64,000 bases of DNA from Micavibrio sp. (GTDB lineage: Bacteria > Pseudomonadota > Alphaproteobacteria > Micavibrionales > Micavibrionaceae), in the NCBI GenBank assembly GCA_026989265.1, contig JALSJP010000001.1:186001-250000 (forward strand). The letters run 5' to 3'. The position numbers were made by a program, and so were the translations under genes. This document shows, piece by piece, positions 4,160 to 6,331 of this stretch (within the stretch, counting starts at the first letter, position 1; each line of letters begins with the position of its first letter). The notes under the pieces were generated by a model, which worked only from the letters and a program-made list of their open reading frames with translations, did no database searches and was not told the origin of the DNA.

Positions 4160-6331
4160 ATGAGCGATAGAGCAAAAATAATCCATGAAAATTTTCTATC
4201 CGGCGTTAAAAATGAAGATTTTCCTGATACAAACATTATTAGCCCTGCAAATGTTGGGCTTAGTAATTCGCAATTTGTCGAGATATTCGAAAGCCAAATA
4301 TTAAGCCGCCGCCTTGATATGCAATCCCGCGAATTGCAAGCTATTGGCGAGGGGTTCTACACTATCGGAAGTGCGGGGCATGAAGGAAATGCAGCCGTAG
4401 CAGCCGCGCTTAATATTAAAGATATGGCATTCTTGCATTACCGTGATGCTGCATTTTTTATACAAAGATCAAAACAACTAGCAGGGCAAACCCCGCTTTG
4501 GGATATGCTTCTAAGCTTTACCGCCTCTAGCGATGATCCAATATCCGCAGGTCGTCATAAAGTATTGGGAAGCAAAGCCCTTAACATTCCACCACAAACC
4601 AGCACTATTGCATCGCACCTGCCCAAAGCAGTTGGCGCGGCGTACAGCCTTAACCTTATGAATAAATCGAATGACCTTATATATTGCTCATTCGGTGATG
4701 GCTCGGTTAATCATTCAACTGCGGGGGGCGCATTTAACTCTGCTTGTTGGGCGGCATATCAGGGCGCAGCCATGCCTATCATGTTTTTATGTGAGGATAA
4801 TAATATAGCCATATCCACCCCTACTCCTAATAACTGGATATATAATAATTTTAGCAACCGCCCTGCCCTTAAATATTTTCACTGTAATGGGCTTAATGCA
4901 CTTGAGACTTATAAAGTAGTCAAAGAAGCGGCTATTTATGCCAGAGCCAATAAATCCCCTGTATTTGTGCATAAAAAATGCGTGCGTTTTCTTGGTCACG
5001 CTGGCGCGGACGTACAAACAGCATATATGAGCAAAGAGCAAATTGAACGCGGCGAAGCTAATGATCCGCTGCTACATAGCGCTAACCTGCTTATCCAAAA
5101 TAATATTTTAACTCCCGCGCAGATATTATATATTTACAATGAAATTGGCAAGCGAGTATCTGCCGCAGCAAAGCAAGTTATAAAACGCCCAAAACTCACA
5201 ACTTCTAAAGATGTGCAGGCAAGTATTATTCCGCCGCCTCTAATAATGTCATCCCGAGAGAAGCCGAGGGATCTTAAGGTCTCTCCACAAGGTCGAGATG
5301 ACAATGTTTTTGACAAAAAACCACAACATATGGCGAGGCTTATAAATTGGGCGTTACATGACTTAATGCTTGAACATGATAACATCGTAATGATGGGCGA
5401 AGATATTGCGCAAAAAGGCGGAGTTTATAACGTCACTGCTAAGCTTCATGAAAAATTCGGGGCAAGGCGCGTTATTAATACCCCGATTGATGAGCAAACC
5501 ATATTGGGGCTAGCCATTGGCATGGCGCATAACAATATTCTTCCCATTCCTGAAATACAGTTTCTTGCCTACCTCCATAATGCAGAAGACCAGCTTCGCG
5601 GCGAGGCGGCAACTCTTAGCTTTTTTTCCAATGGGCAATATACAAATCCTATGGTTATTCGCATTGCGGGGCTTGCCTATCAAAAAGGCTTTGGTGGGCA
5701 TTTTCATAATGATAATAGCTTTGCTGTGCTGCGCGATATTCCGGGTATTATCATAGCATGTCCATCTAATGGCGCGGACGCGGTCGCTATGATGCGCGAG
5801 GCGGTGCGGCTAGCCCGCGAGGAGCAGCGCGTTATCGTATTTTTAGAGCCAATAGCCCTATATATGACTCGCGATCTGCACGCGGATAAAGACGGGCTTT
5901 GGACTGCCAAATATGCAGATACCAAACCAATAGCCATTGGTGATATCCATGTCCACGGTAAAGGCAAAGAGCTTTGCATACTCACATATGGCAATGGATA
6001 TTATCTATCCCGCCAAGCTGGAAAGATTTTAGAAGATGAGCATAATATAAAACTTCGCATTATAGATATGCGCTGGCTAGCCCCGCTTAATGAGGAGGCA
6101 ATCCTTAACGCAATCAAGCCTTGCAGCCATGTGTTAATCGTTGATGAATGCCGCAGAACTGGTTCTATCAGTGAAGCATTAATGACTATGATAATGGAAA
6201 ATTCTGCGCCATTGCCAAAGCTTGAACGCCTAACGGCGGATGATTGCTTTATCCCGCTGGGCAAGGCTTATGCTGTCACACTTCCAAGCAAGGATAAAAT
6301 CATAGCGCACGCGCTGGAGCTTATATCATGA
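4160..6331 (+). CDS. fused alpha-beta 2-oxoacid dehydrogenase E1 (branched-chain type)
   Basis: Thiamine-diphosphate-dependent E1 component carrying both subunits in one 723-residue chain; families of this type decarboxylate 2-oxoacids and pass the acyl group to a lipoyl E2. Residues ~40-345 are the alpha part, with SAGHEGNAA, AGRHKVLGS and the TPP/Mg motif GDGSVNHSTAGG (179-190) ending in EDNNIAIS. Residues ~390-720 are the beta part, with MGEDIAQKGGVY, NTPIDEQ and GGHFHNDNS. Between them sits a short linker containing a palindromic repeat that adds 19 codons in frame (residues about 363-381). The next gene overlaps by four bases (ATGA), so the two are translationally coupled. No E2 or E3 gene is in the window. 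It resembles branched-chain oxoacid E1 more than pyruvate E1, but the substrate is not determined. Confidence 0.85.
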   Translation: MSDRAKIIHENFLSGVKNEDFPDTNIISPANVGLSNSQFVEIFESQILSRRLDMQSRELQAIGEGFYTIGSAGHEGNAAVAAALNIKDMAFLHYRDAAFFIQRSKQLAGQTPLWDMLLSFTASSDDPISAGRHKVLGSKALNIPPQTSTIASHLPKAVGAAYSLNLMNKSNDLIYCSFGDGSVNHSTAGGAFNSACWAAYQGAAMPIMFLCEDNNIAISTPTPNNWIYNNFSNRPALKYFHCNGLNALETYKVVKEAAIYARANKSPVFVHKKCVRFLGHAGADVQTAYMSKEQIERGEANDPLLHSANLLIQNNILTPAQILYIYNEIGKRVSAAAKQVIKRPKLTTSKDVQASIIPPPLIMSSREKPRDLKVSPQGRDDNVFDKKPQHMARLINWALHDLMLEHDNIVMMGEDIAQKGGVYNVTAKLHEKFGARRVINTPIDEQTILGLAIGMAHNNILPIPEIQFLAYLHNAEDQLRGEAATLSFFSNGQYTNPMVIRIAGLAYQKGFGGHFHNDNSFAVLRDIPGIIIACPSNGADAVAMMREAVRLAREEQRVIVFLEPIALYMTRDLHADKDGLWTAKYADTKPIAIGDIHVHGKGKELCILTYGNGYYLSRQAGKILEDEHNIKLRIIDMRWLAPLNEEAILNAIKPCSHVLIVDECRRTGSISEALMTMIMENSAPLPKLERLTADDCFIPLGKAYAVTLPSKDKIIAHALELIS
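5247..5303. repeat. REP/RPE-like palindromic element inside the E1 reading frame
   Basis: The left arm TGTCATCCCGA (5247-5257) and right arm TCGAGATGACA (5293-5303) are inverted copies with one mismatch. The interior contains GAAGCCGAGGGATCTT, a familiar core of bacterial intergenic palindromic repeats. The unit is 57 bases, exactly 19 codons, and keeps the frame open. It encodes a polar, charged peptide (SSREKPRDLKVSPQGRDDN) in the linker between the alpha and beta halves. This parallels Rickettsia palindromic elements found inside genes. No transposase of the RAYT type is present in the window. Confidence 0.8.

Follow-up and report, generated by a model that had tools for sequence, protein, structure and literature searches.

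A TGTC-Tagged Palindromic Repeat in Frame within the Interdomain Linker of a Fused E1 Gene of Micavibrio

Introduction

The stretch of DNA analyzed here, referred to as the window, is 64 kb long and carries on its forward strand a gene of 723 codons (4160–6331) for a fused alpha-beta 2-oxoacid dehydrogenase E1, in which three Pfam domains are recognized: E1_dh at residues 47–347, Transket_pyr at 391–562, and Transketolase_C at 595–714. A palindromic element of 57 bp is placed between E1_dh and Transket_pyr, inside the single reading frame of the gene. The locus raises the question of how such a repeat came to encode part of a conserved enzyme, and whether it lengthened the linker between the two halves, created it, or took the place of residues that were already there. 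The first-pass annotation of this DNA regarded the element as a REP/RPE-like insertion that added 19 codons to a tolerant linker.

Results

Architecture of the element and membership in a repeat family

The element (5247–5303, forward strand) is a head-head dimer of TGTC-tagged REP half-palindromes, as determined from an alignment with nine further genomic copies and from a covariance model, R2, which was built from those nine copies with the E1 copy left out. The left outer arm, TGTCATCCCGA (5247–5257, forward strand), carries the TGTC tag and pairs in the consensus structure with the right outer arm, TCGAGATGACA (5293–5303, forward strand), which carries the inverted TGTC tag in a CTC variant; the 11-bp inverted arms with one mismatch described in the first-pass annotation were thereby verified. 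The inner arms, GAGGGATCT and AGGTCTCTC (5266–5285, forward strand), belong to the consensus inner stem, which corresponds to columns 25–33 paired with columns 54–62 in the alignment of ten copies, and are separated by almost no spacer, giving the short-spacer form.

The ten full genomic copies follow a common two-stem plan, with outer arms of TGTCATC(C/T)CGA and inner arms of GAGGGATCT and AGATCTCTC. The two halves of the element are unlike, where one has an ATCCC stem and the other an ATCTC stem, with the TGTC tags on the outside. In the left unit of the E1 copy, ATCCCGAG/CGAGGGAT, the stem begins with AT, 6 of 8 positions are paired, a tandem G-A mismatch is present, and the loop is 6 nt long; these details of stem and loop vary among the other genomic copies in the alignment. 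The tail of the family copies is CTT or CTA. The E1 copy carries TGTC at either end, and both ends are tagged in 83 of the 95 other copies. The tags point outward in all copies aligned to the covariance model, which was itself built on dimers.

When the window was searched with R2, a single site was obtained, at 5247–5303, with a score of 56 bits and an E value of 5.7e-10, for which the calibration is rough; the match is reported on both strands because the element is a palindrome. This result bears out the earlier description as REP/RPE-like, in the sense of a dispersed family. The 11-mer end motif with one mismatch allowed is weak evidence when taken alone, as it gives 24 matches in the 1.74-Mb genome compared to 11 for the reversed control; many of the matches pair up 57–87 bp apart. 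Folded by itself, the strand of the E1 copy is no more stable than its shuffles (z = −0.29), whereas another copy folds strongly better (z = −4.3). The evidence for the E1 copy is therefore its membership in the family, not its stability. The copy in E1 is thus a genuine but partly eroded member of the family. The Rfam search returned no family for the element and the search of plasmid DNA no match, and the literature search with its bare sequence gave nothing relevant among the matches listed.

Replacement of the native linker

The element extends from the second base of codon 363 to the first base of codon 382, that is, residues 363–381 and one further base. In the alignment of 81 E1 sequences, the interdomain linker of the window E1 comprises residues 359–387 (5234–5320, forward strand), of which 19 of the 29 are encoded by the element. 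The linker between two conserved positions has 29 residues in 54 of the 81 sequences, the window included, and 27–36 residues in all but two of the remaining ones. Because the linkers of the orthologues have the same length, the net gain due to the element is zero, and the 19 codons are not an addition, as had been claimed, but a replacement of native ones. At the positions of codons 363–381, the orthologues have R (91%), L/I (80%), F (88%), and E/D (100%). The element replaced the native linker of E1, including this conserved R..LF..E/D motif, for which the structure model of the nearest orthologue shows an ordered helix. A fully tolerant linker, as presumed earlier, does not agree with the replacement of such conserved positions.

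No copy of the element is found in or near any of the 80 loci around the E1 orthologues. The element did not create the linker, a role that had also been considered, because the 80 element-free orthologues already possess one.

In that model of the nearest orthologue, the stretch matching the element is helical, and its block averages of pLDDT lie between 78 and 88 (residues 380–387). In the model of the window E1, the pLDDT is below 50 at the element-coded residues 366–380, the longest very-low-confidence segment, although the low values may partly stem from missing homologous columns at the element. Among the orthologues, 242 positions are conserved in 95% or more of the sequences, and the window E1 retains 234 of them. 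The identity to the nearest orthologue is 77% in the alpha part and 84% in the beta part; differences occur 3.5 to 4.4 times as often at third codon positions as at first and second positions. Judged from its sequence, the enzyme apart from the linker looks intact and functional.

A palindrome also occurs in the linker of one E1 orthologue from another lineage, L047, a groundwater MAG. It is unrelated to the present family, GC-rich and near-perfect (CCCCCCCTCCCAACCCTCCCTCC...); the linker that contains it has an RNA fold of −52 kcal/mol and, owing to the palindrome, exceeds the usual length by 7 residues.

Copies across genomes and inside genes

The recurrence of the arms elsewhere in the genome, which the first-pass annotation had put forward as a check, was confirmed: at least 10 copies are present in the genome of the window, in which copies lie in frame in three genes (E1, lepA, and polA), and the model R1 detects about a dozen places. 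Among the 12 genomes of the same GTDB genus, R1 gives about 49 places in G007, about 31 in G009, about 7 in G011, and a few each in G001, G003, and G004, where the place counts were obtained by roughly halving the two-strand matches. R1 detects no copies in five other genomes of the genus, including G002, the nearest relative with respect to E1. Of 289 Alphaproteobacteria sampled, only six pass an E value of 1e-5, counting the present genome. Matches to the same model in distant Alphaproteobacteria occur in G074, G186, and G275 (one other family), and in G115 and G124.

In G007, 11 of 45 copies have a partner of the same length at 95% identity or more, which suggests a fairly recent spread in that species. 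Four intergenic copies in the genome of the window (C30:3574, C5:5989, C5:63491, and C2:92661) adjoin or sit inside a repeat with the unit CACGAAG, and this repeat is not found in the 64-kb window.

A total of 96 copies were read in the genus (95 and the E1 copy), of which 12 lie in frame inside genes whose families were confirmed by family models. In addition to the three genes named above, the hosts are murD, an amgK-like kinase gene, PDH-E2, and leuS in G007; dnaE, uvrA, the gene of a lipoyl-bearing PDH-E1beta, and ygfZ (near the gene end) in G009; and rnhB in G001. The names amgK-like and PDH-E2 are approximate because the matches are below the NCBIfam equivalog cut-offs. The view that such elements are normally intergenic outside Rickettsia is not supported, in view of the eleven in-frame copies besides that of E1 and of intragenic REPs in the literature (PMC3733652). 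The in-gene copies are read in several frames, giving MSSR/LSSR...RDD, VIPS...RDD, or CHP/CHS; they have one to four stop-free frames, and 22 of the 84 remaining copies have none.

By plain count, four of the 12 host genes serve DNA replication or repair (polA, dnaE, uvrA, and rnhB), a share that agrees with the unexplained bias in PMC3733652. Three of the 12, again by plain count, belong to 2-oxoacid dehydrogenase complexes (the window E1, PDH-E1beta, and PDH-E2).

The change in protein length was determined against element-free orthologues. Relative to those of the same genus, the net gain is +28 residues in lepA, +32 in uvrA, and +22 to +30 in dnaE; it is about 11 to 17 residues in murD and the amgK-like gene, and 1 to 7 in polA. 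In E1, compared with the 80 orthologues of the alignment, it is zero. These graded net gains among the host genes fit an insertion followed by trimming.

Transposase genes and target sites

The search for a RAYT gene suggested by the first-pass annotation detected no intact one in the genome of the window; it yielded only a fragment of 19.8 bits and 27 positions, below the Pfam cut-off. Uninterrupted full-length Y1 transposase genes are present in G002 and G004, and the gene in G008 is broken by two stops. These three genomes have no or few copies, and the copy-rich G009 (about 30) has no Y1 transposase gene; across the 12 genomes of the genus, the presence of a RAYT/Y1 transposase does not track the copy number. 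Target-site duplications of 3 bp or more were not found beyond chance around the genus copies, which weighs against taking transposition as demonstrated. A weak excess of 2-bp duplications is seen (15 compared to 8.8 expected, p about 0.02). No parent IS was found for the element.

Discussion

Origin of the E1 copy

A non-autonomous TGTC-REP dimer very probably entered the E1 linker in frame, and native codons were lost while the length of 29 residues was kept. A REP dimer of this kind would have been copied around the genomes of the alphaproteobacterial genus, presumably mobilized in trans by some enzyme, and would have arrived in frame among the linker codons of E1 after the lineage had diverged from the closest relatives in the sample. 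About 20 native linker codons, including the conserved R..LF..E/D helix, were lost, probably by in-frame deletions that came after the insertion and were favored by selection for linker length, and less probably in a single replacement event. As a result of this loss of native codons, the E1 linker now has the usual 29 residues and is mostly REP-encoded. The element may persist because an open, polar, and probably disordered peptide of this length still joins the E1 halves, and the insert would be nearly neutral.

The main point to be weighed is whether the length was restored by trimming or was never changed. In a direct replacement, the repeat would have been copied in through gene conversion or template switching and the same length of linker lost in a single step, which would account for the exactly modal length of 29 residues in E1 and for the polA copy, which is likewise near length-neutral. 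However, the genus copies in lepA, uvrA, and dnaE clearly add residues on balance, and the net gain grades continuously from gene to gene; a direct replacement is considered unlikely. A broader form of the idea, in which the REP dimers of the genus enter coding linkers, displace as many host codons as they bring, and thereby re-sequence proteins in place at unchanged length, with E1 and perhaps polA as the record, is considered rather improbable. It is also conceivable that the REP-coded peptide or an mRNA hairpin alters the activity, the assembly, or the mRNA processing of E1 and was kept by selection, as conserved linker residues are gone and yet the enzyme is intact, and as more than one 2-oxoacid dehydrogenase gene hosts a copy. 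The 12 unrelated host genes and the several reading frames argue against one selected peptide, the fold of the E1 copy is not above its shuffles in stability, and such an adaptive role is very unlikely.

Mobilization by a RAYT, with the element as a REP of the GTAG type, might be considered because several genomes of the genus contain genes for a Y1 transposase or fragments of them. The tag is TGTC and not GTAG, the genome of the window contains only the sub-threshold match, and the transposase genes sit in copy-poor genomes; this origin is disfavored and regarded as most improbable. A chance inverted repeat within a fast-evolving linker could appeal to the number of matches that the 11-mer gives in the reversed control. 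It is refuted by the full two-halved architecture and by the E value from a model trained without the E1 copy, and its probability is negligible.

Comparison with known repeat systems

The nearest description in the literature is that of the CGTC-tagged REPs (CGTC-1 to CGTC-4), defined by Di Nocera et al. 2013 (PMC3733652). According to that work, their tag is CGTC, TGTC, or CCTC, often TGTC; an 8–9 bp stem opens with A-T pairs and closes on a loop of 4–5 nt, and the unpaired tail is mostly CCA, a majority feature that is not strict. Head-head dimers prevail, with heterodimers also present, and the repeats occur mostly in alphaproteobacteria, Micavibrio included. Intragenic copies, many of them in replication and repair genes, show a bias that is unexplained, and no dedicated transposase is known (PMC3733652). 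The window family shares the TGTC tag, the head-head dimer, and the intragenic copies, and AT also stands first in the stem of the left unit in E1. It differs from the published description in the tandem G-A stem mismatch, the longer loops, and the CTT/CTA tail, and because of these deviations in stem, loop, and tail it is not assigned to any of CGTC-1 to CGTC-4.

The earlier comparison with the Rickettsia palindromic elements proved apt, as RPE-4 and RPE-6 of R. conorii are CGTC-4 and CGTC-1, respectively (PMC3733652). Judged from the literature description, the window family would belong with them to the tagged-REP superfamily, and it shares with the RPEs the in-frame insertion into conserved protein genes, dnaE among them, although it comes from a different genus. 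The ATP/ADP translocase, a sign of intracellular life, gave no match in the 12 genomes, in a search without a positive control that is uninformative. Intragenic GTAG REPs, as well as CGTC REPs, have been described in several species (PMC3733652). The window family resembles the GTAG REPs as small dimeric palindromes that are sometimes intragenic, and differs from GTAG REP/RAYT systems in its TGTC ends and in a genome where no intact RAYT was detected. MITEs (ERIC, RPE-1, and others) are non-autonomous, have terminal inverted repeats, and are known to form in-frame fusions (PMC2229807, PMC10969869). All three properties are found in the window family, which differs from MITEs in being shorter (57–98 bp), in showing target duplications of 3 bp or more no more often than chance, and in that no parent IS was found.

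With the present results, one more alphaproteobacterial genus joins those with tagged REPs inside genes, and empty-site controls are provided for six genes besides E1. In E1, a core enzyme, a conserved helix of the linker gave way to the repeat and the usual linker length was kept, which makes the tolerance of REP-coded peptides testable in one enzyme. The element is a family member of an already known repeat type, and it is the length-neutral outcome in E1 that is unusual.
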